A stretch of 64,000 nucleotides of DNA from Sinohyriopsis cumingii (Eukaryota > Mollusca > Bivalvia > Unionida > Unionidae). This document shows, in pieces, positions 17,471 through 59,026 of this stretch. The notes beneath the pieces were generated by a model. That model saw only the letters and a list, made by a program, of their open reading frames with translations, searched no databases and was not told the origin of the DNA. Position 1 is the stretch's first letter; each line of letters begins with the position of its first letter. The stretch covers positions 45,082,837 through 45,146,836 of the forward strand of contig CM068830.1 of the NCBI GenBank assembly GCA_028554795.2. The letters are read 5' to 3'. Position numbers and translations under genes: made by a program.

Positions 17471-18513
17471 TATATGTGTGCACTATTTATGTTATTCATA
17501 ACAAATATTATGCTTCAGAATTGGCATTAAGTTTGTACTGGAAGTGAATATCTTTCATGCAGACCGGGACTGATAAAATCCAGGAGAACTCTATCAAGAG
17601 ACCTATAATCAGAAATTACAAAATCAGAAATTTTAAAAAATCAAATGGATAATGTGGCATATTAAATTATCATACAATCCGGTCTAAGAATCAAATAATT
17701 AACTGAGTGCATTAACATGTATTTCTTTAGAAATATATGATGGTTAATTAAATAATAAGAATTGTATCAACAGTGAGTTTTACAGCTATGTTGCATTCCC
17801 TCCAATTTATCTCGGTTTTCATCTAAACACGTTTTACACCGTACTCTAACACCCTTACCCATCCTTAGCACCATAGATGAACCAGCAAGTCTCATAATTG
17901 GTATTATAAGCATAAAGACGCTATCTTAAATAATGGAAGAGGAATTATCTGTAATGGCACAGTCGTTTTAGAATAAATAGGAAAACTTCCACTTGCCCGC
18001 CCACTACCTCTCCAACCCCTCTCGCACACACATACATATCTCGCCTAATTGAAATATACTTTAAAATGTTTTAAGTTAACGTGAAATGTTGCTAAAAAAA
18101 ACGATAGTATGCAGGTAGACTTTGGCCTGTTTAACTAGTTGCTTTCTTTACAGTCGAAACCGAACTATTCAAGGTCAACACTGCATGAGATTGTATGGAT
18201 CTATAGACGGTGACTCAAGTATAACGTAACAGGTTTGTGTTCTCAATTGGACAGGTAAGCATAAAACGTGTGTTATACCCGGCTTCATCTGACAGTGAAA
18301 TATTTGTTTTCGGCGCTACCTAATCCATGTGAGAAGTTTTCGAGAGGAACTTCGTGGCAAACTTAAAGCGACTTCGTGTTGTTTACTTACTTTTGTTTAT
18401 TTTTTTCAATTGCTTAAAACAGCATTCGAAGATTCTTTAAGCAATGACCCGTATTGCTGCCTAACTAATGTTACAATAAAACCGAGAAACCCGCTGTGAA
18501 TACGAAAAGGAAT

Positions 18514-19287
18514 ATGTTTTTACACGACAGCGTTAAAGATTCTCGAGTTGAATATGACACTTGCATCAATGGACCTTTTATTGACAATAATAAACATGTC
18601 GCATTGGCCATCAACCCGTATAATTGCTACAACAATAGATTTTCTGAGGGTCAGAATGGTCAACATTGTGCCGTCCAAATGGGGAATCCTGTGCAAGAAT
18701 GGGCACAAAAAGCGAACTATATTCCACGTGATTCAGAAGTGTGCAGGAATTCTATTCCAGTCGGTCTTTTTCGTCCCAGTCTCGCTCACAATAACGATAC
18801 CGGCAAAAGCATCCGAAATGGATGTAAGCCAATATGTATTCCATTGAAGATGATTATCCCATTGGATCCATTAGAGAATGATGGTGTCAATCGATGGCAC
18901 ACAGAATTCAGCAAAGATATGTCCAAATCAGCTTTGACCATAAAAGGGCCTTTGGAAAACATTGCACGGTATAATGTGCCGGATTATTCTAGGAAACAGA
19001 AGATTGATGGCGAAGCAATCGTGGACTTAGCTGCAAATAAACACAACCGATGGAACCGGATAATCCACAATTATTTGTGGTGTCCGTTTGTGTTGCTTTT
19101 CGTGTTCTTCTGTTGTGCGCCAGCTATTTTGCTTATGCACAAATCGGATATTGCGTTTCGAAAAGGGCGTGATTCCGAAGCCAGACGTTGGGCCATATGC
19201 TCATCCCTATTGTATGGAATTGGGTTGGTGCTTACTCTTGCCTTTTATGCCATGCTATTTGCCTTGGTCTTTGTTTACACCAAATAA
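18514..19287 (+). CDS. CD225/dispanin (IFITM-like) membrane protein, copy A
   Basis: A 257-residue protein with a hydrophilic N-terminal region of about 185 residues, then two membrane segments typical of the CD225 domain. The first has a Cys-Cys pair in FVFFCCAPAILL; a cytosolic-type loop with GRDSEARRWA follows, then a second hydrophobic segment ending VYTK. In known members (IFITMs and relatives) this domain is membrane-embedded and several members block virus entry; function here is inferred. The start is the ATG at 18,514, because a stop lies in frame at 18,466 and the GTG at 18,496 is not a eukaryotic start. A donor-like CAG/GTAAGC at 18,254 and an acceptor AAACAG at 18,422 suggest a 168-bp intron in the 5' leader. 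The coding region itself is one exon. Confidence 0.85.
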   Translation: MFLHDSVKDSRVEYDTCINGPFIDNNKHVALAINPYNCYNNRFSEGQNGQHCAVQMGNPVQEWAQKANYIPRDSEVCRNSIPVGLFRPSLAHNNDTGKSIRNGCKPICIPLKMIIPLDPLENDGVNRWHTEFSKDMSKSALTIKGPLENIARYNVPDYSRKQKIDGEAIVDLAANKHNRWNRIIHNYLWCPFVLLFVFFCCAPAILLMHKSDIAFRKGRDSEARRWAICSSLLYGIGLVLTLAFYAMLFALVFVYTK

Positions 19288-27230: not shown

Positions 27231-28251
27231 ATGAGTGTGCACTATTTATGTTATTCATACCAAATGTTATGGTTCAGAATTGGCTTTTTGTTTCAACTGG
27301 AAGTGAAAATGCTTCATGCCGACCGTGCCTGATAGAATCCAAGAGAACTCTATCGAGAGACCTGTATTACAAAATCAGAAATTTAAAAAAATCAAATGAA
27401 TAATATGGAAATTTATCATGCAAAATCAAATCCGTTCTAAGAATCAAATAATTAACTGAGTGCATTAACATTTAATTCTTTAGAAATATAGGGTGGTTTA
27501 TTAAATAATAAGAAATGTATCAACAGTAAGTTTTGCAGCTATGTTGCGTTCCTTCCTATTTATCTCGGTTTTCGCTTTCAACACCGTCCTCTAACACCCT
27601 TACCCAACCTTGGCACCACAGATGGAACAACAAGCTTCATAATTGGTATTATAAGCATAAAGAAGCTATCTTAAATAATGGACGAGGAAATATCTGCAAT
27701 AGCACAGACGTTTTAAAATAGGAAGACTTCCACTTGCCAACCCACTACCCTCCAATCCCTTTCGAACACCCATGCACATCTCGCCTAATTGAAATATACT
27801 TTAATAACATTTTAAGCGAACGTGTAATGTTGCTTAAAGACGATAGTACGAAGAAAGATTTTATCCTGTTTACATAGTTGCTTTGTCTATATTCTAACAA
27901 CGTACTCTTCAAGGTCAACACTGCCTGAGCTCGTATGGATCTATGGACGGTGACTCAAGCATAACTTAAACACTCTTGTGTTGTCAATTGTGCGGGTAAG
28001 CATAACACATGTGTTATACCCGACTTCATCTGAGAGTGAAATATTCGTTCTTTGCGGTAACTAAAACATGCGAGTTTTTGAGAGGGACTTCGTGGCAAAC
28101 GTAATGCGACTTCTTGTTGTTTTCTTACTTTTGTTTATTTTTCTCAATTGCTTAAAACAACATTCGAAGATTCTTTCAGCAATAACCAGTATTGCTGCCT
28201 ACCTAATGTTACAATAAAACCGAGAAACCGGCGGTGAATACGAAAAGGAAT

Positions 28252-29028
28252 ATGTTTTTACACGACAGTGATAACGATTCTCGAGTTAACTATGACACTT
28301 GCATCAATGGGCCTTCTATTGACAATAATAAACATATCGCATTGGCCATAAACCTGTATGATTACTATAACAATAGCTTTTCTGAGGAAAAAAATGTTCA
28401 ACATTGTGACAACCAAACGGAGAATCTTGTACAAAAATGGGCACAAAAGGTATACTTTCTTCCAAGTGATGCAGAAGTGCGCAGGAATTCACTTCAAGTC
28501 AGCCTGTTTCACCCCAGTCTCGCTCAAAATAACGATACCGGCAAAAGCATCCGAAATGGATATCAGCCAAAATATATTCCATTGAAGATCATCATGCCAT
28601 TGGTTCCATTAGAGAATGATGGTGTCAATCGTGGACACACAGACTTCAACAAGGATATGTCCAAATCGGTTGTGACCATAGAAGGGCCTTTCGAAAACAT
28701 TACACAATATGATGTGCCGGATTATTCTTGGAAACAGAAGATTGATGGCGAAGCAATCGTGGACTTAGCTGCAAATATATACAACCGCTGGAACCGGATA
28801 ATCCACGACTATTTATGGTGTCCGTTTGTGCTGTTTTTCGTGTTTTTCTGTTGTGCGCCAGCTATTTTGCTTATGCACAAATCGGATATTGCGTTTCGAA
28901 AAGGACGTGATTCCGAAGCCAGACGTTGGGCCATATGCTCATCCCTATTGTATGGAATAGTCCATAAAGTGCTTACTCTTGCCTTTTATGCCATGCTATT
29001 TGCCCTGGTCTTTGTTTACACCAAATAA
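28252..29028 (+). CDS. CD225/dispanin (IFITM-like) membrane protein, copy M
   Basis: A 258-residue paralogue of the 18,514 gene, starting at the ATG 18 bases after the equivalent GTG. The CD225 domain is nearly identical to that of the other copies, except that a short stretch in the second membrane segment reads IVHKVL with one extra codon. The N-terminal extension differs at roughly a quarter of its positions from copy A but is close to the copy at 58,253. The donor near 27,996 is kept. The acceptor used in copy A has changed from AAACAG to AAACAA here, and the nearest alternative AG is about 14-28 bases downstream, still in the leader. Membrane location and antiviral-type role are inferred from the family. 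Confidence 0.85.
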   Translation: MFLHDSDNDSRVNYDTCINGPSIDNNKHIALAINLYDYYNNSFSEEKNVQHCDNQTENLVQKWAQKVYFLPSDAEVRRNSLQVSLFHPSLAQNNDTGKSIRNGYQPKYIPLKIIMPLVPLENDGVNRGHTDFNKDMSKSVVTIEGPFENITQYDVPDYSWKQKIDGEAIVDLAANIYNRWNRIIHDYLWCPFVLFFVFFCCAPAILLMHKSDIAFRKGRDSEARRWAICSSLLYGIVHKVLTLAFYAMLFALVFVYTK

Positions 29029-41007: not shown

Positions 41008-41012
41008 ACCTG
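41008..41012. repeat. Target site duplication, left copy (ACCTG)
   Basis: ACCTG precedes the element and recurs at 57,689-57,693. The uninterrupted paralogous sites (about 27,690-27,705 and 17,940-17,955) have the similar single sequence ATCTG. If the terminal T of the right repeat is counted as target, the duplication is 6 bp (TACCTG), the length usual for Polintons. Confidence 0.9.
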
Positions 41013-41160
41013 AGCAGCAGAGAGGGCGATCAGACCACTTAACGCGTCACGTACGCTTTTTTAGACAAAAAAAAATAGTGACCCTTCATAGAGTTCAATA
41101 CCACTTCTACGATTATTGTTTGTCCCAAACATAATTGTAGACAGGACCCTCTCTGCTGCT
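41013..41160 (+). repeat. Left terminal inverted repeat (148 bp)
   Basis: Reverse complement of 57,541-57,688 with four substitutions by eye. The repeat itself begins AGCAGCAGAGAGGG and ends with the exact inverse, CCCTCTCTGCTGCT, so each repeat is bracketed by 14-bp inverted arms. It contains T6 and A9 runs. Confidence 0.95.
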
Positions 41161-42746: not shown

Positions 42747-42781
42747 TTTAGATCATATGGAAAAATGCTAATTATAATAAA

Positions 42782-44227
42782 ATGTTCAAGCGCGAATCAG
42801 ACACAGCATTTGATATGGAGGCACCTGTCCTTAAGTATGAATCTGTACGTGATTATCAATTTTATTCCTATGACGCAAGACAACCAAATCAGCGGGGAAG
42901 AATAGAATTACAGGTTCATGATACAAGTAGATATTTCTTGCCCGCTGAGGCGTTTATTGAAGTAGAAGGTAGACTTGTAACGAATGTTGTAGCTAATACG
43001 CCATATGCCGCTAATTTGCGAGTTGGTTTTGTCAACAACGGAATTATGGCATTGTCTGATAGCGCCACATACATGATTGATGGAAAAAATATCGAATTGA
43101 TTCAGAAGGATGTTGATGTTGCTACAACAATAATTGGTCTAGCGAGATATTCTGATGATTACACAAGATCAGCCGGTCCAACAATGATGTTTGCAAAGGA
43201 TATTACTAACCACGCTGATCATGTTCAATATACTAAGTTACTGGCACCACGAAATACTGCAGTTGATCCACAACCAGTTGATTTTGAACACGCAGACAGA
43301 CCAGGTGCTGATTTTGATATTATAAAAAGTGTTAATGCGACTTACAACTTAGGGTTTGCAACACGCCGAGCAGCGTTGTCAGGAAATGATAGAAATTTTT
43401 CATGTGCAATTCCATTATCTCACATCTTTGGATTTTGCAGAAATGTTAGAAAGGTCATCTTTGGAGCTAAGCACACAGTTGTGCTCGTAAGAAAAGGTGA
43501 TGATAATGATGCAATCTGGCGAGGTGCTGGTGTTCCTGATGGTAAAGTAAATATAACAAAGCTTTCACTGTGGATGCCAGTAATGACTCCATCTATTGCT
43601 GAAGAACAAAAATTTATTTCTTTTATGGATCAAGGCGGTAAATCATTACTATCATGGTTAACAATAACCACAGATGCTATTCAAACTTCTGTTAATGGTT
43701 TATTCACATGGCATATAGCATCACAACAATGTGTTTCTGCACCACGACATATTTTTATTGCGCTGCAAGATAATGCTCGGATGATTAATCAAGAACGTTC
43801 ACACATGATATTTGACAACATTGGAGTTAATGAAGTTTCCTTACGGATAAATGGACATCATGAACCAACTGAAGATTACTTGTTAAATTTTGATCAAAAT
43901 CACGTAGCGCGTGCATATCATCGTTTAATGTCATTCATGGGACGTGATCAAAATATAGATACTGGTTTGCAAATATAAGAACTAGATTTTACAAATCTAT
44001 ATCCGATTTATTATTTTTCACTGGAGCATCTTGATTTGTCCAAACAGTCTGTCGTTGATATACACTTTCGAGCTCGTGTTACTAACCCTACTCCTGATAT
44101 AGCTGGTCCACCTCTTATTCGCGGCACCTACAGAGCAATTGCGGTCATACTTAGCGATAAAGCCATGTTACTTGAAGGCGGTAGTGGACGAATGAGAGTC
44201 GTTGATGCACCAGTGGAAAATCTTTAA
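42782..44227 (+). pseudogene. Major capsid protein (double jelly-roll type), one in-frame stop
   Basis: Opens at ATG 42,782 and runs 398 codons to a TAA at 43,976. The same frame then stays open without an ATG to a second TAA at 44,225, and the extra 82 codons carry a conserved-looking beta-rich segment (DLSKQSVVDIHF, then AVILSDKAM). The likely original product was therefore about 481 residues, cut by a single nonsense codon. The main part has features of an invertebrate capsid family I recognise: EGRL near residue 63, HIFGFCRNVRKVIFG near 215, a beta-rich middle, and DYLLNFDQNHVARAY near 365. Placement between minor virion proteins and protease supports the capsid role. The double-jelly-roll fold is inferred and not demonstrable by eye. 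Confidence 0.7.
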
Positions 44228-44256: not shown

Positions 44257-44652
44257 ATGTCGTATAGTCATGTTAATGTTACTGTGACTCCCGGTCAGGT
44301 CAAAAAGCATCAATCAAAAACCACCAGCAAATGTGGAACTAAAATATCGCTAAAACGAGATGAGATGGGTGGTGGTCCAAACAAATTATCGTTGACAAAT
44401 AATCAGATTAAACATTTCAATAAAGCCCTAGAATCAAAACCCGGAGTTCAATTACGTCTTTCTCCGAGCGCCATCAAAGACATGGCTAAAACGGGTGGTA
44501 TATTTCCACTTCTTGCGGCTATCCCAGCGTTAATAGCTGCTGCTGCTCCAGCTGTAGCAAAAGCAGCCGCGTTAGGTGCTGTTGGAACAGCTGCTGCAAT
44601 GGCTCTAAAGAAAGCAACTGGAAATGGATACAAAAGAAGGGACGCGGTCTAA
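44257..44652 (+). CDS. Ala-rich membrane-active-type virion protein
   Basis: 131 residues. The N-terminal half has LTNNQIKHFNKALES and a KPGVQLRLSPSAIKDM motif. A long Ala-rich hydrophobic region (about 88-118) could insert in a membrane, and the open frame ends basic (GYKRRDAV). In another frame, 44,637-44,699 encodes a Gly/Leu/Arg-rich tail (GRGLRLPG...), similar in flavour to the GSGLRRR tail of the 42,228 gene, so the true C-terminus may have been lost to a small indel near 44,636. The role (minor capsid or membrane interaction) is inferred from composition and position. Confidence 0.6.
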   Translation: MSYSHVNVTVTPGQVKKHQSKTTSKCGTKISLKRDEMGGGPNKLSLTNNQIKHFNKALESKPGVQLRLSPSAIKDMAKTGGIFPLLAAIPALIAAAAPAVAKAAALGAVGTAAAMALKKATGNGYKRRDAV

Positions 44653-45139
44653 GATTACCGGGATCTCGCTGGGGAAGAGGTCTGAGGCTTCCACGTTAGA
44701 TGCTCCAGCATCAAATTTTGATTTACTTGATGCTGCTGAACGATTAAAAATAAAAAACTTTAGAGGTGTTTTTATGCGAGATCAATTACCAAAACAACCG
44801 AATAAACTCGAAACAGGTATTATTAATCTAGACTCGAATTCAGGACCCGGTACTCATAGGGTATCATAAGCGGTTGATCCACGTGGAATCGTTTATTTTG
44901 ATTCGTACGGGTTAGCTCCACCTGTTGAATTTATCAAGTATGTCGCACCACTTCACGCAAGAACCTCTGGTTGTAAAGTTTGGTATTCAACGCTACCCAC
45001 ACGAACAATGACAGATCCTCCAATATGCGGCTTTGATGTAATTAATGTACTCGACGCTATATCAAAATCATCCAAACCGCCACATAAAGTCGTGCATGAT
45101 TATACAAGCAACCGCTTCGTTGCGCGTAAGGCGTTTTAA
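44624..45139 (+). pseudogene. Adenain-like cysteine protease, in-frame stop
   Basis: Same-frame reading from ATG 44,624 (or a later, lost start) to TAA 45,137, interrupted by TAA at 44,867-44,869. Landmarks of viral maturation proteases of the adenain/Ulp1 group are in order: FRGVFMRDQLP, a His in PGTH directly before the stop, an Asp in YFDSYG just after it, and a candidate Cys in PICGFDV. The residue after the His is Arg, where this family usually has an aromatic Trp, so the active-site region has decayed at two neighbouring codons. The family processes virion precursors. Overlaps the preceding gene by 29 bases in another frame. Confidence 0.75.
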
Positions 45140-45163
45140 ACAGATCTTGGATCTTAAAATATA

Positions 45164-46165
45164 ATGGTTGATATTTACGGAAGAAGATCCTCACGCGTTA
45201 AGAAAAAATCCGGCGATGTTGATCTGTCGAAGTATGCGACTAAAGATGAACTCGCTGATATCATGATCCTGGCTGGAGTTGACCCAGATGAGGTCGTTAT
45301 TTTTCAAGATCGATATGGTAAACTAAAAACGAGCAACATCAGATGGTATGATATAGTTCGACGAGTACTTGGTGCAGTTACAGATAATATTCCTGTGTTT
45401 ACTGACGGTGGTAGAATCAAAGATTCAAGTATATCGTTTACAACAATTAGAGATGAAATTGCAAGAAGCGTTGCTAATCGCGTGAAAAATACCGGTGACA
45501 CAATCACGGGTGAACTCAGCATGAACGGAAATAAAATAGTAGTTTTAAGAGATCCAACATCCGACGAAGATGCAGCAACAAAAAAATACGTCGACACCGT
45601 TGATGGTAAATTATCCACGCTGCGGGCCGAGTATGACGTTCACGTGGGCGCTTTTGCAAGATTTCGCAGAAACCATCAAAGAACCGCAGAAGAATTCTTC
45701 GGCACTCCGCACTCCGTTGACATAAATCTCGCTGATATCAATACGAACATCGACACGATCAAACGAACACAGCAAGACATCGTAGCGGGGATTCCTGAGA
45801 TCGTTAATAAAACCAATTTGATTAAAATTCCAGCCGGAATAACTCCCAGACATATCACAAACATCGTATACACAGTATCATCTGGATTCGCAACATGGTC
45901 GCAGCAAAATAAAACTATCAAATATACCGCAACAGTCACTGGCGTGTACAGGCTGTCTGTGTTCAGTGCTGCAAAATTTGAAATATTTACAACGTTTCCA
46001 TGGCGTCATTCAACTGATAGGTTTTCCGGGGTTGTATCTGTTATATTAAATAGCGGAACCGAAGAAATATTTATCCTGGAAGCAGATGATAAGAAATTAA
46101 CCGTAACATCTTACTGGTGGTGTTTGGAATTTGTAGCTGAAACACCTCAATTGGTTACTGCATAA
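45164..46165 (+). CDS. Fibre/spike-like virion protein
   Basis: 333 residues, intact. Residues 109-147 carry the repeat-type motif GDTITGELSMNGNKI followed by DAATKKYVD, a signature of trimeric phage and virus fibre shafts. A short coiled-coil linker comes next, then a beta-rich C-terminal domain of about 120 residues that could be a receptor-binding knob. The charged N-terminus (RRSSRVKKK) could anchor to the capsid. Starts 24 bases after the protease stop, with a TTAAAATATA leader directly before the ATG. Host-attachment role inferred from the shaft motif and position. Confidence 0.75.
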   Translation: MVDIYGRRSSRVKKKSGDVDLSKYATKDELADIMILAGVDPDEVVIFQDRYGKLKTSNIRWYDIVRRVLGAVTDNIPVFTDGGRIKDSSISFTTIRDEIARSVANRVKNTGDTITGELSMNGNKIVVLRDPTSDEDAATKKYVDTVDGKLSTLRAEYDVHVGAFARFRRNHQRTAEEFFGTPHSVDINLADINTNIDTIKRTQQDIVAGIPEIVNKTNLIKIPAGITPRHITNIVYTVSSGFATWSQQNKTIKYTATVTGVYRLSVFSAAKFEIFTTFPWRHSTDRFSGVVSVILNSGTEEIFILEADDKKLTVTSYWWCLEFVAETPQLVTA

Positions 46166-48310: not shown

Positions 48311-48870
48311 ATATAATGACTGATGGGATAAATTACACAAATTAATCAATTTTGTACAATCTGAAATAATTCTGAAATGAATCAATCTGATGGGGTAATT
48401 GGTACTGAAAATTATACAAATCAATCAGTTTGCTAATTCTGATGGGGTAATTGGTACTGAAAATTATACAAATTAATCAGTTTTCCAAAAAATACTAAAA
48501 AAAAATATTGTATTATTATTCTGAAATATTTTTATTATTATTCTGAAATATTTTATTTTTTTGTGAATCAATCTGATGGGGTAATTGGTACTGAAAATTA
48601 TACAAATCAATCAGTTTGCTAATTCTGATGGGGTGGTTGCTACTCAAAAGTATACAAATCAATCAGTTTATTAATTCTGATGGGGTATAATTGGTACTTA
48701 AAAGTATAGAAATCAATCAGTTTTCCAAAAAATACTACCAAAATATTTTTTATTATTATTCTGAAATATTATTATTATTATTCTGAAATATTTTATTTTT
48801 TTTTACGTAAATTAATTCTGATGTGATATACAGTGAGGGAAATTATACTACTACTCAGGGTTGCTTTGGT
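48311..48870. repeat. Intergenic direct repeats (52-bp unit)
   Basis: CTGATGGGGT followed by roughly 40 AT-rich bases recurs at 48,387, 48,439, 48,573, 48,625 and 48,677, with a degenerate copy at 48,317. Two larger blocks each end in CCAAAAAATACT and (ATT)n/TTCTGAAATATT tracts, so the region is a duplicated array. It lies between a rightward and a leftward gene, where transcripts would converge. Confidence 0.85.
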
Positions 48871-50707: not shown

Positions 50708-51205
50708 TTAACAGTACTGAAAGGTGATTCTCTGTTTATATTTTTTTGAGAAAGTAGATCTGATTATATTTTCTGCTACTTTTTGTACTGAATATGAGTG
50801 AATATCAAAGTATTTCGCATCAGAACATATCGAACGAAACATAATTACTTCGCCAGTTTCTGTGTTTGTAGAATTTACCGCCCTCTTTCCGATTGTTTTA
50901 CATCTTCCAGTATTACCACATGCAGAGTTCACGCTTTGCGTGACAACACGAAGGTTGGATAAACTATTATTTTGAGGATCCCCGTCAACATGATCAATAA
51001 CAAGACCGTCATTGATCACTCCGAAGAAACATTCGTAGATGAAACGATGACAATGATAATGTTTCTTCCCAACAGTAAACATTAGATAACCAGTATTAGT
51101 AACAAAACCAACCGGTTTTTTTAACCTGCAGTGTCTGATGACACCATTACGATCTGATTCATAGTTTGTTATGACAGGATTTGGGACAAATATATTTTGC
51201 TCCAT
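50708..51205 (-). CDS. HNH endonuclease (HNH_3-type, homing-like)
   Basis: 165 residues, intact. An N-terminal beta-rich part leads into HRFIYECFFG (about 53-62), then DH at 71-72, GDPQNN (75-80) and NLRVVT (84-89). This is the H-N-H pattern of phage- and intron-type HNH nucleases. The C-terminal part (about 112-150) resembles the DNA-binding repeat often found after such domains. It would cleave DNA; whether it serves recombination, genome processing or its own spread is unknown. Leftward, downstream of the 51,517 gene. The start codon follows an AT-rich GCATAT. Confidence 0.8.
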   Translation of the reverse strand: MEQNIFVPNPVITNYESDRNGVIRHCRLKKPVGFVTNTGYLMFTVGKKHYHCHRFIYECFFGVINDGLVIDHVDGDPQNNSLSNLRVVTQSVNSACGNTGRCKTIGKRAVNSTNTETGEVIMFRSICSDAKYFDIHSYSVQKVAENIIRSTFSKKYKQRITFQYC

Positions 51206-51274: not shown

Positions 51275-51517
51275 TTATAGCGTTTTCACCATTATTATTT
51301 TTTTGTCATAATATCTTTTAAGTTCTCTGAACCGTTTTCCACCGCACTTTCCACATAATTCTGTTTTTCCTCGCACTCCAATACCACATCGCAGACACGG
51401 TATTGGTCCTAGACTCCCCCGCCGTATGCCTTGTAAGTGCATCCAACAAAATTCACCTCTACAAGATTTGTTGCATCGATTTACTGAACCGATCATGAGC
51501 CATCTGCATTAAGACAT
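51275..51517 (-). pseudogene. Cys-rich zinc-binding protein, in-frame stop near start
   Basis: A paralogue of the 57,191 gene. Reading from ATG 51,517 gives two codons, then TAA (51,509-51,511), then an open frame with CRWL, CNKSCRGEFCWMH, a CLRCGIGVRG pair and LCGKCGG. The two zinc-finger-like clusters match the intact copy position by position. An inner Met at 51,496 could still give a 73-residue protein lacking only the first Cys. Role unknown; it may bind nucleic acid or protein. Confidence 0.65.
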
Positions 51518-51561: not shown

Positions 51562-54500
51562 ATGAACGAGTTTGAGATATTATCCTAAACTAGGCCTGTT
51601 AAATATAAATTTAATCTCGACAGATTATCTTCTGATTTACCAGTACGAGATTTGGTTGATCCGAAAAATAAAAGTTTGATCAATAAAATTCACGACGCCA
51701 AGAAAGAATTTTACACGGATGGTGCATCTCATACATGGTCAACGTTTAAGATTATACGCAATACTGTCAAGGACGCTACAATGAATGACAAGCGAGCGGC
51801 AACTATCATTAACTACATCGCTGAATACGAGGGCAATCAAAAATATTTCTTTAGAGTAAAATTTATTGTACTAACAGAAACAGGTAGTTGGATTATCCGT
51901 GACAAATCTGATCCTGTCCTTGGTAATAATAAAATCGCCATATTAAGTAAAAATTCCAGACAGGGGTTTGTTGACGGGTATTGACAAACCGTATTATGAG
52001 CGAGCGTATCCTGTAACAGCGGTTATTTATGGAATCTATGAGATAAATAAAAAAACCAACGTTGATAAACTGACACCCATGAAATTTTCAAGGTTAAATT
52101 GTGTAACCGAACGAGTAATAGAACACTTTACAAACGTGATGCGTGGAAACGGATTAACTGATTTAAGACGTGAAAAAATAAACTCGTGGGCTGATTCAGT
52201 TAAGGATACCGGTGCTACAATAAAAGATGGTGCTGAGTTAGGAAAACTATTAAAATTTCCAATAACCGTAGCGACAATAACGGGAGAAATACTGTATGAA
52301 TCCAAATATAAATCAAAAGGAAATTCAATAAATATTATTGATCATAACGCGCACGCATGGACCAGCGCAGTAACAATATTTCCACGTGATCGAACTATTA
52401 GATTTTACCCCCCAGATACGAGTATGCTTGATTTTATCAACGAAATAAGTAAAAACGATCCTGTATCGGTATGGTTATTTAAAAGTAATGAGGAAGGTGG
52501 ATTTGATCAGTTTGTTAGACCAAACGGTGAAATATATCAAACAGAATTTCTCCATGACGAGATGAAAAATATCGCGGAGAAGTTTTTAGAGTGCAAGCAC
52601 GCGGAAAATACTGACAAATTACTAACTAATTGCTTTACCGTTCCATCTGTTGCGGCTCATTTCGCTAGAGAAAGAAATTCATGGAAACCAACACGATTTG
52701 ATTTACCTGAAGATGTACGCGCAAGTTGCGTCGAATACGGACACGGCGGATTGTGGAATACCAAATATAATTACAATGATGTCATTTCGGTTGATATGGT
52801 TGCATGTTATCCAGGAAGTTTTCTAGGATACGGAGATTGTTCTGTATACTTTAAAAGATTTGGTCACCCTACAAACGAGATGACGCGAGTGGCAATTAAT
52901 GGACCATTACCTGATTTTGATCTGACTGGATTCGCTTGTGCTGAATCATTCGAGTTTAACGAAAATCTCCACCAAATTTGTTATGTTTGGTTTGGTAGAC
53001 ATTTTTGTGAAAAACGTTGGGCGCCTATAGTTTTATTACGATATATGCTAGATTGTGCGGTACTGACATCGTTGGTGGTTAGTGAGGCAATTATATCATA
53101 TCATGCACAGACCGAAGTTTGGTTGCCCATGTCAGATTCTATCAGTGCTGATGAAGTTATTAGCGAGTTTAAGGAAAAATGTCCTGGCGTTTCCGAAGAT
53201 GATATTATCAAAGAAGCTCCTAAAATTCTCGAGATTAAACTTAAAACCGCAAAAGATCTAGGTAGAAAAATTATAGGTAAATTTACTCAAGGTGGTGCAT
53301 ATGATCATAAAAGACATCACGCACGATTAATTCTAGATGATGCCGAGTACCATTTTATAATCGCTGATACAACAGCGAGAAATATATTTGTAAATCGAGA
53401 AAGTATTTATTTATCCGACGGAACAAAATTGGGTACGATCGTTAGTTATATAAATGATATCTCCCCACAGTATACTCATCTAAGATCTTCCATGTTGGCT
53501 TATGTTTCTATAAATTTATTATCGATGATCAATAGATTTCCTGAGACCGCGGTCAGAGTCGCAACAGATTCGTTTTATATTTCGAGTAAATATTTAGAAT
53601 CTGTTATGGAATTCACAAGTAATGATGAACGATGGAGTTCGTGGAGAATCAAAAAGGAAATATTACACAATTACACAGAAGCAGCAGATGTTCCAATGAG
53701 AGATTTTTATCGTAAGGGTAATAAAATATCAGAAATGTCGAAAGCGCCATCGTTGAGTGATCCAATAACTAGATATAAGACAGTATATCTCAATGGACCT
53801 GGTGGATGCGGCAAAACGACTCGAGCAATTAATGTTTTTAGAAATTCAGATATGATCGTGCTGACACCCACACATAGATTTGCACGGGAGATGAAACAAC
53901 GGCAAGTACAATCGTGCACGTATCATAGTTTCTTTCGGTGGCGCGGGGATACATGGACTCCTGAACGAATGGGAGAAAAATATATACCTAAAATAATTAT
54001 TTGGGACGAGATATGTACGGTGTCATTGGATACATTAAAAATGTTTCTTGATTGGTTGTTGACGAAAAATACCGCTATAATAATGTGTGGCGATCATGGT
54101 CAACGGCCGCCTTTTGTTGGACCATCTCCACATGATTGGTTAAAAAATTTCGTTGATTATTACGAAGAAATAGATGATGATCATAGAGCTTTCGATGCAA
54201 ATTTAAAGGAATTTAAAAAATTAATCAGATTACAATCAAACAAAATTCAGTGTGAAATAATACGTGGAGTGATCTCAGAGACCTCAATGAGTGATTTTTT
54301 AAATTTATGGAGACCCACCGATTTGATAGTAGCAAGCAGAAAAATAATCAGAGACGATTTACAACAGCAGTTATTTCAGCTGCATTAAGAAAAATATTCA
54401 GAATTGCCCGTACCGTTGTGTTATAGACCATCAGATACACGAAAACAGAATATTAATGTTGATATTCCAGGAGAGACTGAGAATCAAAATCTCGTATTAA

Positions 54501-55035
54501 ATGATATTGTCGCTGTTGATATCAGTGTAGTCGAAGATGCATTACGCGCTGACAAATCTCCATGGGTGTTGGGATGCGCTATGACGATCCACTCGTCTCA
54601 GGGATTAACTATTTCTGACACACGAGTCTGGATTGTAGACGATCGTATCGAGTGGTCAAATTTAGTCTATTTAGCGGTATCAAGGGTGAGAAAAATATCT
54701 CAATTACGTAGAATTATAATTCCTGAAATCGTTAATAAATTTAACGTCATTGATGATGATATAATAAAAAAATTAATCGGATACAAACAATCTGATAAAA
54801 AAATAAACGTGACTTTGATCTTGATGTTGAATTTATTATTGAGTTAAAACAGCAGCAGAATAATAATTGCGCAAATTGCAATTGTATAATGCTGTGTAAG
54901 TATTCGAGTAATGATTCAAGACAATTTACCGTAGACAGAAAAGATAATAGTCGCGGTCATACACGAGAAAATGTGATGTTGACCTGTCTTGAGTGTAATC
55001 GACGTCGGGATGCTGGCACCCTTGGCGCTAGTTAA
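51562..55035 (+). pseudogene. Family B DNA polymerase - SF1 helicase - HNH-like replication protein, broken
   Basis: One reading path of about 1,155 codons. ATG 51,562 is followed by TAA at 51,586. The N-terminal domain is open at 51,589-51,984, then a frameshift leads into 51,968-54,386. Counting from 51,968: polymerase motif A (DMVACYP) at about 276-282, a Lys-rich motif-B-like segment near 435, motif C (ATDS) at 532-535. The helicase then has Walker A at 610-617, DE at 680-681 and GDxxQ at 708-712. A same-frame TAA at 54,386 precedes the helicase C-terminal motifs (TIHSSQGLTI, YLAVSRVR) at 54,404-54,780. A further shift gives a Cys-rich HNH-like end (about 54,850-55,035; CxxC, DRKDNSRGH, CLECN). 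No 3'-5' exonuclease motifs are evident. It would copy the viral genome if intact. Confidence 0.8.
51968..54388 (+). CDS. Largest surviving ORF of the replication gene (PolB plus helicase N-half)
   Basis: 806 codons open. It holds the polymerase catalytic motifs and helicase motifs I-III but lacks helicase motifs V-VI, which follow after a TAA in the same frame. Polymerase and helicase are continuous in this single open frame, so their fusion does not depend on any assumption about frameshifts. Confidence 0.85.
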   Translation: MLTGIDKPYYERAYPVTAVIYGIYEINKKTNVDKLTPMKFSRLNCVTERVIEHFTNVMRGNGLTDLRREKINSWADSVKDTGATIKDGAELGKLLKFPITVATITGEILYESKYKSKGNSINIIDHNAHAWTSAVTIFPRDRTIRFYPPDTSMLDFINEISKNDPVSVWLFKSNEEGGFDQFVRPNGEIYQTEFLHDEMKNIAEKFLECKHAENTDKLLTNCFTVPSVAAHFARERNSWKPTRFDLPEDVRASCVEYGHGGLWNTKYNYNDVISVDMVACYPGSFLGYGDCSVYFKRFGHPTNEMTRVAINGPLPDFDLTGFACAESFEFNENLHQICYVWFGRHFCEKRWAPIVLLRYMLDCAVLTSLVVSEAIISYHAQTEVWLPMSDSISADEVISEFKEKCPGVSEDDIIKEAPKILEIKLKTAKDLGRKIIGKFTQGGAYDHKRHHARLILDDAEYHFIIADTTARNIFVNRESIYLSDGTKLGTIVSYINDISPQYTHLRSSMLAYVSINLLSMINRFPETAVRVATDSFYISSKYLESVMEFTSNDERWSSWRIKKEILHNYTEAADVPMRDFYRKGNKISEMSKAPSLSDPITRYKTVYLNGPGGCGKTTRAINVFRNSDMIVLTPTHRFAREMKQRQVQSCTYHSFFRWRGDTWTPERMGEKYIPKIIIWDEICTVSLDTLKMFLDWLLTKNTAIIMCGDHGQRPPFVGPSPHDWLKNFVDYYEEIDDDHRAFDANLKEFKKLIRLQSNKIQCEIIRGVISETSMSDFLNLWRPTDLIVASRKIIRDDLQQQLFQLH

Positions 55036-55979
55036 GTGATCGCGGTGGTAGTTGTGTATCCGTGGGGATTATTTGTAGTTGTTCACGTGTAAATCCACGT
55101 TGAGGAGCAGCCGAATCTAGTCTGTAGATTGCGGGTCTACCTGAGAATCTTGTCACGGTGGATATTTTGTGTGTGGTAACACTCCAAATAGGATCAGTCG
55201 CTCTCGCGCTACCACCTTCAAGTTCACCCGGTTCATATAAATATCTAACTGTAACATCACCCAATATTTTTTGTTTTTCAGTATCTTTTCGCTGTGTTGG
55301 TATATTTTTTGTGTAATTGCATTAATCGGTTTCATGTTGGTTGCTCGTGTAATCTCATTATTTAATGCAGCTATCACGCTTGCTAATCTTGCAACCCATT
55401 CGCGAGATCTTTTATCTTGAATAAATTCCTTAGCGTATTGATATCCAAATAACCGCTCAGCAAGTGTTCGATTAAATCGCTCAACAATTGCCTGATCACG
55501 GTGAATTGCAGTATGACCTCGTCGTATTTTGGTATTATGCCGTTTCATCAACGATGATACTGGACCAAGAAATCCTTACCAGGATCAACCTGTAGTAGCT
55601 GTGGCCAGCGCAGACCACCTCGTTGATAAATTCGTTCAAACGCATCGGCTACTTCAGATGATGTTTTCTTTGATAGCGGCTCTGCCTCTTTATATCTACT
55701 TGCAACACCAACTACAGTTAACGCGTACTTGTACGTTTTTCCACGCACAGTATCATGTGGTAAAAACAGAATATCAGCTTGATGAACTTCATTAGGAACA
55801 CTAAGATCGAAATACGCGTACTGAATTCGTTTCGGTGGTGGTAGATAAATTTGCCATATTGCCTGTTTGGATAACCACGCTTTAGCAGTAGAATGTTTAA
55901 CCGCTGCTGCATCAGCGAGTTTACCAATTGCTGCTTTGCCTCTCCAATATCCTCTTGGTGAATAATAAATTAATTCCAT
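55028..55979 (-). pseudogene. Retroviral-type (rve) integrase of Polinton class, frameshifted
   Basis: Starts at ATG 55,979. The first open part (143 codons) has the N-terminal GYWRGKAAIGKL and IWQIYLP motifs and two catalytic Asp (HQADILF, D69; LQVDPGKD, D132). A one-base shift near 55,560 moves to the frame with the catalytic Glu (AIVERFNRTLAER). A second shift near 55,270-55,310 gives the SH3/chromo-like C-terminal part (GDVTVRYLYEPGELEGG), ending at TAG 55,028. The enzyme joins the linear viral DNA to host DNA; the target duplication here fits that activity. Its end overlaps the convergent replication gene by 8 bases, and its ATG shares one base with the PLA2 stop. Confidence 0.88.
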
Positions 55980-56482
55980 TATACATTACCAGACCCAAAC
56001 GCTAATTTACCTTTCATCGCGGATCTTACTAACCAATTAGCTAATGATTCTCTGATATTTTTATTTTTTATAGAATTTAACGCGTGAATTAATTTCACAT
56101 CTGCAATATGCCTATCTTGTAGATTTTTACTTTTATAAGCTACATCATGAACATGACAAGCTTTATCAATAGCATTTACTGGTTCCTCGCCTGGTTTTGG
56201 TTGATCCTGATTATCGAGCCTGATATCGAGTCGAGTACCAGGACCGCAATAATTATATCCTGGTAGATGTTTTTCTCCTGGGTATTTAGCCCATGGAGCA
56301 CCTGGAAACTTTGACATCAAATTAGCAACATCACCACCGCGCTTATTAGGTAAAAATGAAAATGTCTTTCTACCGCACACAGAACATTTTCCACCATACG
56401 CTATTTTTTTATTTTTTGTTATAACTGTGGCTAAATCAGTAGTTGGAGTTTTAACTCTACAGCGTAAACAATATAAATTCAT
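55979..56482 (-). CDS. DUF5679-like zinc ribbon fused to phospholipase A2
   Basis: 167 residues, intact. The N-terminus has a Cys4 ribbon (C5, C8, C33, C36) like DUF5679. A parvovirus-VP1-like PLA2 domain follows, with calcium loop YNYCGPGT (76-83), catalytic His-Asp in CHVHDVAY (H112, D113) and a supporting Asp near 128. The tail is GSGNV. In parvoviruses and adintovirus-like elements such PLA2s help virions leave endosomes. All key residues are present, so the enzyme could be active. Divergent from the ATPase with only 12 bp between start codons. The TAA overlaps the integrase ATG by one base. Confidence 0.88.
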   Translation of the reverse strand: MNLYCLRCRVKTPTTDLATVITKNKKIAYGGKCSVCGRKTFSFLPNKRGGDVANLMSKFPGAPWAKYPGEKHLPGYNYCGPGTRLDIRLDNQDQPKPGEEPVNAIDKACHVHDVAYKSKNLQDRHIADVKLIHALNSIKNKNIRESLANWLVRSAMKGKLAFGSGNV

Positions 56483-56494: not shown

Positions 56495-57154
56495 ATGGAT
56501 ATAATTGATTTCTCAGCGACAAAAAAACGAGAACCTGTTAAGCATCATCCTGCGCTACCGAATTCCATCAGAATGATTATCATGGAGCCATCTGGATCGG
56601 GTAAGACGCAGTTATTACTTAATCTGATAATGAGATGGTTGAAATGGGATAAATTATATTTAGTAGCACCATCCGTTGATGATCAACGATGTTATGATGT
56701 ACTTAAAGATTTTAACGAAAATGCAAGATTACTGGACGAAGATAATGATGTTATAGAGTTTATAACAGCTATTGAGGAAGCACCGTCCGTTAATGTTTTA
56801 GACGGATTTATTAATAATTTAGTTGTGTATGATGATGTGATGATAGATAAACAATCAAATCCAATATTTTCTCGCGGTAGACATAAAAATACAGATGTGA
56901 TCTATGTTACTCAACGATATACACAAATACCAAAAGTGATCAGGGACAATTGTAATATTTTAGTTGTGTTTAATGGCGTAGATACACACACACTTAGAAA
57001 TATTCATCAAACCTGGTGCAGCGGTGACATGGATATAATTAAATTCAGAAATTTCTTCTCACGAGCGCAAGCTACTCCGCATGGATTTATAACAATAAAT
57101 TTGCACGATCCTAGAACAAGATATCGTGTAGGTCTTGATAAAATATTTGGATAA
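56495..57154 (+). CDS. DNA-packaging ATPase (poxvirus A32-like/FtsK-HerA type)
   Basis: 219 residues, intact. Walker A EPSGSGKT at 31-38; Walker B LVVYDDV with acidic residues D113-D114; a sensor-like VIYVTQR near 134-140; an Arg-rich end (DPRTRYRVGL). Enzymes of this family pump genome DNA into preformed icosahedral capsids and are a hallmark of Polintons, virophages and large DNA viruses. Length is normal for the Polinton version. The only genome-handling motor gene of the element that is still open. Confidence 0.88.
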   Translation: MDIIDFSATKKREPVKHHPALPNSIRMIIMEPSGSGKTQLLLNLIMRWLKWDKLYLVAPSVDDQRCYDVLKDFNENARLLDEDNDVIEFITAIEEAPSVNVLDGFINNLVVYDDVMIDKQSNPIFSRGRHKNTDVIYVTQRYTQIPKVIRDNCNILVVFNGVDTHTLRNIHQTWCSGDMDIIKFRNFFSRAQATPHGFITINLHDPRTRYRVGLDKIFG

Positions 57155-57190
57155 ATTAATAAATTTAATTAAACAGATATCATTAATATA

Positions 57191-57541
57191 ATGAACAATT
57201 GTACGTGGTTAATTCACGGAACAACAAATAAATGTAACAAAAGGTGCCGTGGAGAATATTGCAGGAGACATAATTATATTTTAAAGAAAAGTCCTCATGC
57301 TGGTTCACGAGGTTGTGTTGGATGTAACAACGGCGTTAGAGGATTATATCAGATTTGTAAAAATTGCGGTGGAGATCGATACAGAAGTTTGATGATATAT
57401 TACGGAAAAAGAAAGAACATAAATCCAAAAATAGAAAAACCACCATCAGAACTTGAATATTACTTGAAGAACAAAACAAAAGATTCCCAGGATTCAGATG
57501 AAGATTCCCAAGATTCAGATGAAGATTCCCAGGATTATTGA
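57191..57541 (+). CDS. Cys-rich zinc-binding protein with acidic repeat tail
   Basis: 116 residues. N-terminal cluster with C4 in NCTWL, then CNKRCRGEYCRRH; second cluster CVGC and CKNCGG, suggesting two zinc sites. The C-terminus has a short tandem repeat SQDSDED (about 2.5 units), strongly acidic. The intact paralogue of the 51,275 gene. The last base of its TGA stop is the first base of the right terminal repeat, so coding extends exactly to the repeat boundary. Preceded by ATTAATATAATG. Role unknown. Confidence 0.7.
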   Translation: MNNCTWLIHGTTNKCNKRCRGEYCRRHNYILKKSPHAGSRGCVGCNNGVRGLYQICKNCGGDRYRSLMIYYGKRKNINPKIEKPPSELEYYLKNKTKDSQDSDEDSQDSDEDSQDY

Positions 57542-57688
57542 GCAGCAGAGAGGGTCCTGTCTACAATTCTGTTTGGGACAAACAATAATCGTAGACGTGG
57601 TATTGACCTCTATGAAGGGTCACTATTTTTTTTTGTCTAAAAAAGCGTACGTAACGCGTTAAGTGGTCTGATCGCCCTCTCTGCTGCT
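57541..57688 (-). repeat. Right terminal inverted repeat (148 bp)
   Basis: Inverse of 41,013-41,160; differs at four positions by eye, no gaps. Same 14-bp inverted arms at its two ends. Confidence 0.95.
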
Positions 57689-57693
57689 ACCTG
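57689..57693. repeat. Target site duplication, right copy (ACCTG)
   Basis: Matches 41,008-41,012. Host unit sequence resumes directly (CAATAGCACAGACG, as at 27,700). Confidence 0.9.
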
Positions 57694-58252
57694 CAATAGC
57701 ACAGACGTTTTAAAATAGGAAGACTTCCACTTGCCCGCCCACTACCTCTCCAACCCCTCTCGCACACACATACACATCTCGCCTAATTGAAATATACTTT
57801 AATAACCTTTTAAGCGAACATATAACGTTGCTAAAAGACGATAGTACGAAAGTAGATTTTTTCCTGTTTACATAGTTGCTTTGTCTATATTCTAACACCG
57901 TACTCTTCAATGTCAACACTGCCTGAGCTGGTATGGATCTGTGGACGGTGACTCAAGCATAACGTAAACAGTCTTGTGTTGTCAATTGGGCAGGTAAGCA
58001 TAACACATGTGTTATACCCGACTTCATCTGAGAGTGAAATATTCGTTCTTTGCGGTAACTAATACATGTGAGAAGTTTTTGTGAGGGGCTTCGTGGCAAA
58101 CGTAATGCGACTTCGTGTTGTTTTCTTACTTTTATTTATTTTTCTCAATGGCTTCAAAAAGCATTCGAAGATTCTGTAAGCAATAACCTGTATTGCTGCC
58201 GAACTAATGTTACAATAAAACCGATAAACCGGGTGTGAATACGAAAAGGAAT

Positions 58253-59026
58253 ATGTTTTTACACGACAGCGATAACAATTCTCGAGTTCAATATGACACT
58301 TGCATCAATGGACCTTCTATTGACAATAATAAACATATCAGATTGGCCATAAACCTGTATGATTACTATAACAATAGCTTTTCTGAGGTAGAAAATGTTC
58401 AACATTGTGACAACCAAACGGAGAATCCTGTACAAAAATGGGCACAAAAAACGAACTTTCTTCCAAGTGATGCAGAAGTGCGCAGGAATTCACTTCAAGT
58501 CGGTCTGTTTCACCCCAGTCTCGCTCAAAATAACGATACCGGCAAAAGCATCCGAAATGGATATCAACCAAAATATATTCCATTGAAAATGATCATGCCA
58601 TTGGTTCCATTTGAGAATGTTGGTGTCAGTCGTGGACACACAGACTTCAACAAGGATATGTCCAAATCGGTTGTGACCATAGAAGGGCCTTTGAAAAACA
58701 TTGCACAGTATGATGTGCCGGATTATTCTAGGAAACAGAAGATTGATGGAGAAGCAATCGTGGACTTAGCTGCAAATATACACAACCGCTGGAACCGGAT
58801 AATTCACGACTATTTGTGGTGTCCGTTTGTGCTGTTTTTCGTGTTTTTCTGTTGTGCGCCAGCTATTTTGCTTATGCACAAATCGGATATTGCGTTTCGA
58901 AAAGGACGTGATTCCGAAGCCAGACGTTGGGCCATATGCTCATCCCTATTGTATGGAATCGGGTTCGTGCTTGCTCTTGTCTTTTATGCCATGCTATTTG
59001 CCATGGTCTTTGTTTACACCAAATAA
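58253..59026 (+). CDS. CD225/dispanin (IFITM-like) membrane protein, copy B
   Basis: 257 residues, closest to the 28,252 copy. ATG chosen as for the others (the GTG at 58,235 is not used). Two-pass CD225 domain at about residues 190-257 with the Cys-Cys pair and GRDSEARRWA loop; the second membrane segment reads GFVLALVFYAM. A donor-like CAG/GTAAGC (exon end 57,993) and an acceptor AAAAAG (58,161) predict a 168-bp leader intron. The virus-like element ends 565 bp before the ATG, so it now provides the distal upstream sequence of this gene. Confidence 0.85.
   Translation: MFLHDSDNNSRVQYDTCINGPSIDNNKHIRLAINLYDYYNNSFSEVENVQHCDNQTENPVQKWAQKTNFLPSDAEVRRNSLQVGLFHPSLAQNNDTGKSIRNGYQPKYIPLKMIMPLVPFENVGVSRGHTDFNKDMSKSVVTIEGPLKNIAQYDVPDYSRKQKIDGEAIVDLAANIHNRWNRIIHDYLWCPFVLFFVFFCCAPAILLMHKSDIAFRKGRDSEARRWAICSSLLYGIGFVLALVFYAMLFAMVFVYTK

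Follow-up and report, generated by a model that had tools for sequence, protein, structure and literature searches.

Proteins in which a protein-primed family B DNA polymerase (pPolB) is joined to a superfamily 1 (SF1) helicase have been described from polinton-like viruses, Tlr1 and transpovirons as Tlr1-like helicases or pPolB-S1H, the name preferred by the authors of PMC11071308, who predict that these polymerases are active. In the excerpts available of this source, such proteins possess a vOTU protease and a protein-primed palm, have lost the first Asp of motif C, show no evident exonuclease, and carry a C-terminal SF1 helicase followed by an HNH or a GIY-YIG nuclease. According to the same excerpts, Polinton pPolBs have an exonuclease and no helicase, and the pPolB of mavirus, which also lacks the first Asp of motif C, is accompanied by a superfamily 3 helicase encoded in a gene of its own. 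An SF1 helicase and a pPolB likewise form one protein in OmPLV of Oxyrrhis marina; however, in the part available of PMC12721341, the helicase comes first, the exonuclease is full, and neither TP nor vOTU was found there. PLV-like elements have been reported with entomopoxviruses of insects, pPolBs have been exchanged among polintons of phyla including molluscs (PMC12220804, in excerpt), and Mavericks were listed in every mollusc genome analyzed (PMC10294476, in excerpt).

In the window (the whole stretch of 64,000 nucleotides analyzed), we identified a locus that shares the vOTU, palm, motif C, helicase and nuclease features of pPolB-S1H, with no evident exonuclease, and we read it, with a probability of about 90%, as a decayed pPolB-S1H (Tlr1-like) replication gene in an integrated Polinton-like element of 16.7 kb whose host is probably a mollusc. 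As presented in Table 1, the gene runs exactly from an ATG at 51562 to a final stop at 55033-55035, the bounds already given by an earlier note made from the sequence alone. The 806-codon ORF at 51968-54388 (813 codons from stop to stop, from 51947) contains, in order, the OTU-like region, the PolB palm and helicase motifs I-III, in agreement with the earlier note, which had placed polymerase motifs A and C and helicase motifs I-III in a single frame; helicase motifs V-VI and the HNH-like end that it described downstream were found at 54389-54844 and 54799-55032. A vOTU-type protease with catalytic Cys and His stands before the palm, which is of the protein-primed type and has motif A at D283 (Asp codon 52793-52795), motif B at K445 (Lys codon 53279-53281) and motif C as A539-T-D541 (Ala-Thr-Asp, codons 53561-53569). 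In the same protein, the SF1 helicase follows C-terminally with motifs I (K623), II (D687-E688) and III (Q719). Altogether, four of the seven features listed for pPolB-S1H were found in the fusion protein.

Table 1. Positions, strands and profile matches of the features of the element and of the fusion gene in the window
Feature	Position	Strand	Remarks
Left terminal inverted repeat (TIR)	41013..41160		5'-AGCAGCAGAGAGGG; 144/148 positions identical to right arm
Right TIR	57541..57688		
Target site duplication, left, ACCTG	41008..41012		6-bp reading TACCTG possible
Target site duplication, right, ACCTG	57689..57693		
Double jelly-roll (DJR) capsid gene	42752..44224	+	PF21738, 7e-18; in-frame stop 43976-43978
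Separate HNH_3 endonuclease gene adjoining the fusion gene	50708..51205	-	PF13392, 1.2e-14
Fusion gene: N-terminal piece, possible terminal-protein region	51562..51984	+	Stop at 51586-51588, frame change at end
Fusion gene: OTU-like cysteine protease domain	52076..52372	+	ORF residues 44-142; Cys52, His133
Fusion gene: protein-primed type PolB palm and fingers	52553..53695	+	ORF residues about 203-583
Fusion gene: SF1 (Pif1/RecD-like) helicase, motifs I-III and on	53762..54385	+	Then in-frame stop 54386-54388
Fusion gene: helicase motifs V and VI (TIHSSQG, YLAVSR)	54389..54844	+	phrog_325, E 2.1e-4; P0001 match
Fusion gene: C-terminal HNH endonuclease-like domain	54799..55035	+	Another frame; PF01844 18.8 bits, below cutoff 21.4
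Retrovirus-type integrase gene, broken, two overlapping frames	55153..55985	-	PF00665 28.1 bits, E 2.5e-6, cutoff 32.6 missed
Phospholipase A2-like protein (Phospholip_A2_4), open frame	55979..56482	-	PF08398 2.9e-13; PF18930 1.1e-9
A32-type packaging ATPase, open frame	56495..57154	+	PF04665, 3.2e-10

The profile searches bore out one half of the fusion directly: the Pif1/RecD-like helicase matched PF13245 (41.4 bits) and PF13604 (33.3 bits), both over cutoff, while the PolB palm was missed by Pfam and was recognized by its motifs and fold. The PDB gave three chance-level matches when searched by sequence with the ORF alone, and 16 sequences of Pif1, RecD2 and related helicases, with no polymerase, when searched with the alignment profile. 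In the predicted structures, residues 28-111 of the relative P0001 form an alpha/beta region near the N-terminus. The best fold match of both structure models was the viral entry H6WBE3, which we suspect to be a transpoviron protein, and the second match for the OTU-palm piece was the pPolB of the mavirus virophage. No exonuclease profile in Pfam, which also misses the palm, matched the fusion protein, in line with the earlier note's view that no exonuclease was evident; among five phi29 fold matches, two start between residues 185 and 188 of the chain and the other three between 52 and 121, which leaves room for an exonuclease remnant.

A search with the 813-codon ORF recovered at least 62 related proteins (E ≤ 0.001) among 7996 scored candidates, and a profile built from the polymerase alignment brought in just two further members of this family, 64 in all. 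By residue test, 30 of these 64 contain the OTU domain, the palm, both helicase halves and the HNH domain; at least one part is missing in the other 34, many of which are short. The 30 complete proteins rule out polymerase and helicase as separate genes in the relatives, the finding that would have told against the earlier note, and they have the domain order for which it had suggested looking in other mollusc genomes, named mollusc sources being among the relatives. We consider it very probable that the intact relatives represent a protein of about 1,170 residues made of an N-terminal region, the OTU domain, a PolB without evident exonuclease, a Pif1/RecD-like helicase and the HNH domain.

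Conservation bears on whether the palm still copies DNA or is a dead relic that binds DNA or primer, with only the helicase (and HNH) at work and another polymerase copying the element. All 61 relatives with a residue at the first position of motif C have Ala there (31/31 in alignment A1), as a dead palm might have it. A 2016 paper, cited in reference lists, reportedly was the first to describe a polymerase-helicase fusion, and its title names Polintons and calls the polymerase inactivated. However, the motif A Asp is kept in 55/56 relatives, the motif B Lys in 56/56 and the later Asp of motif C, D541 in the window ORF, in 61/61, none of which a dead site would need, and the excerpts available of PMC11071308 mention PolBs, including that of mavirus, that are active although they lack the first Asp of motif C. 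Within the element, the only polymerase found is the one fused to the helicase: no second one was seen by Pfam (which misses this palm too) on 32 of the 72 ORFs of at least 60 codons, and the largest ORF outside the fusion gene has at most 408 codons. We regard a dead palm as unlikely, though it is the best placed of the alternatives.

The decayed pPolB-S1H gene lies in an element of 16.7 kb bordered by 148-bp TIRs with 97% identity and, outside them, by the direct repeat ACCTG, for which a 6-bp duplication is also readable because of the terminal T on the right. We observed Polinton/Maverick features in the RVE integrase (PF00665, below its curated cutoff) together with TIRs and target duplication, and in the DJR capsid protein (PF21738) together with the A32-type ATPase (PF04665). 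The integrase profile matched only in the piece at 55548-55985, the other piece being assigned by position. Animal Polintons/Mavericks and adintoviruses share the retrovirus-type integrase, TIRs, DJR capsid gene and packaging ATPase of this element; PLA2 also occurs in them. In contrast to the Polinton pPolBs as described, the only polymerase found here is fused to a helicase.

The relatives come from Sinanodonta woodiana, Elysia crispata, Elysia marginata and Candidatus Thiodiazotropha MAGs among the named sources. An origin of the element from a protist or another passenger rather than from the animal genome would fit the three relatives in MAGs (P0058, P0063 and L001). Nevertheless, contigs of 143 and 165 Mb carry the Sinanodonta woodiana relatives and contigs of 340-494 kb those of Elysia crispata, and the copy in the window is decayed and duplication-flanked, like a resident insertion, so that we hold a passenger origin to be improbable. 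In a quick tree with SH-aLRT support only, containing only its own protein family, the window ORF groups with P0001-P0004, P0043, P0053 and both Sinanodonta proteins in a starred clade of nine rows. These nine rows belong to the set flagged for deviating residue composition, so the grouping may in part be a composition effect. Relatives of the capsid protein include Sinanodonta and Potamilus proteins, and the polymerase P0015 and the capsid protein P0092, both on a contig of size 37,906, suggest that the two genes share perhaps the same contig. No relative turned up in the viral contig collection, which was scanned with the polymerase ORF and with the alignments of the polymerase and of the capsid protein. 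One contig of the genome contig collection, in a Diapherotrites MAG, carries a relative and is taken by us for a contaminant, and in the phage collection two records matched over a small part of the query (6-7%), in the region of helicase motifs V-VI.

The window copy of the fusion gene is a pseudogene and cannot make the protein, because two in-frame stops (Table 1) and two frame changes, placed near 51965-51978 and 54799-54808 by the alignment to P0001, break it. The single reading path described in the earlier note thus holds for the joining of the domains and not for an uninterrupted frame. P0001 (1176 residues) aligns in three pieces: 51571-51978 (48%, P0001 residues 3-137), 51965-54808 (67% identity, 975 aligned positions, E = 0.0) and 54799-55020 (72%); at the sequence level, the polymerase-helicase match is not due to chance. 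That the breaks are sequencing errors or programmed recoding in a functional gene is very unlikely: the gene does keep a long, conserved frame for the most part, and with 144/148 identical positions in the TIR arms the insertion could be fairly young, but the four breaks come with a capsid gene stop and an integrase frame change, and relatives such as P0001 and P0004 read as a single protein.

For the intact form of the pPolB-S1H element, we propose that the N-terminal region would prime DNA synthesis at the ends of a linear genome and that the OTU domain would cut the primer region free by self-cleavage. The polymerase would then copy by strand displacement while the fused helicase opens the duplex; the ATPase would package the DNA into the DJR capsid, and the integrase would insert the copy, making the 5-bp (or 6-bp) duplication. 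The sequences and structure models establish the domain order, the conservation of the catalytic residues and the predicted folds, and from there priming, self-cleavage, polymerase activity and slide-back are inferred. Slide-back initiation needs a repeated end sequence, as in adenoviruses and phages, and the element ends carry the repeated triplet AGCAGCAG, which would suit it. Because this sequence recurs at the inner border of each TIR, it points only weakly to this mode. Each TIR has an inverted 14-bp sequence at its two borders, AGCAGCAGAGAGGG at the outer and CCCTCTCTGCTGCT at the inner one.

Overall, the joining of polymerase, helicase and nuclease is real, and its architecture is already known from related viruses; the fusion is not a new kind, because the described pPolB-S1H/Tlr1-like proteins share its features. 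The interpretation in the earlier note is partly supported; as to the distinct viral lineage that it proposed for a compact replisome, proteins of this build are on record from related viruses in the available part of PMC11071308. Compared by description only with the proteins in these excerpts, the window family occurs in mollusc assemblies and its element also has PLA2; the excerpts relate the nuclease part to intein invasions, whereas the HNH residues are kept here in 40/46 relatives reaching helicase motifs V-VI. No report of a pPolB-S1H fusion in molluscs was found in the literature searched, partly in excerpt, and the 2016 fusion paper could hold animal cases. Possible additions to the published record are the occurrence in mollusc assemblies, the combination with an integrase and PLA2 in a single element, and the steady HNH. 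The placement of pPolB-S1H in animal (mollusc) assemblies, in an element that also encodes a retrovirus-type integrase and PLA2, bears on the exchange of replication modules between Polintons and polinton-like viruses, and the intact relatives, with Ala fixed in motif C and HNH conserved, are material to settle whether such polymerases are active. A more speculative possibility is an integrating virus lineage that infects molluscs, with a replisome protein of four activities (self-cleaving primer, polymerase, helicase, HNH) and an HNH that is obligate rather than a passing homing endonuclease; it might resolve or nick the replicated ends.

Several other reading frames and repeats were observed in the window. 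The ORF at 45158-46162 (+) weakly resembles the N-terminal domain of phage T7 tail fibre (PF03906, 16.4 bits against a cutoff of 25.2) and is a possible fibre-like protein of the element. Pieces at 44609-45136 resemble a cysteine protease by eye, and small Cys-rich ORFs at 51278-51508 (-) and 57173-57538 (+) look like zinc-finger-like paralogues, in both cases without Pfam match. Inside the element, the stretch 48378-48802 holds local direct repeats, 106 and 115 nt long. Finally, three closely similar ORFs of 272-273 codons at 18469-19284, 28207-29025 and 58208-59023 (+) flank the element on both sides. They have hydrophobic stretches near the C-terminus, matched nothing in Pfam at E 0.01 and may represent a tandem gene family of the host.
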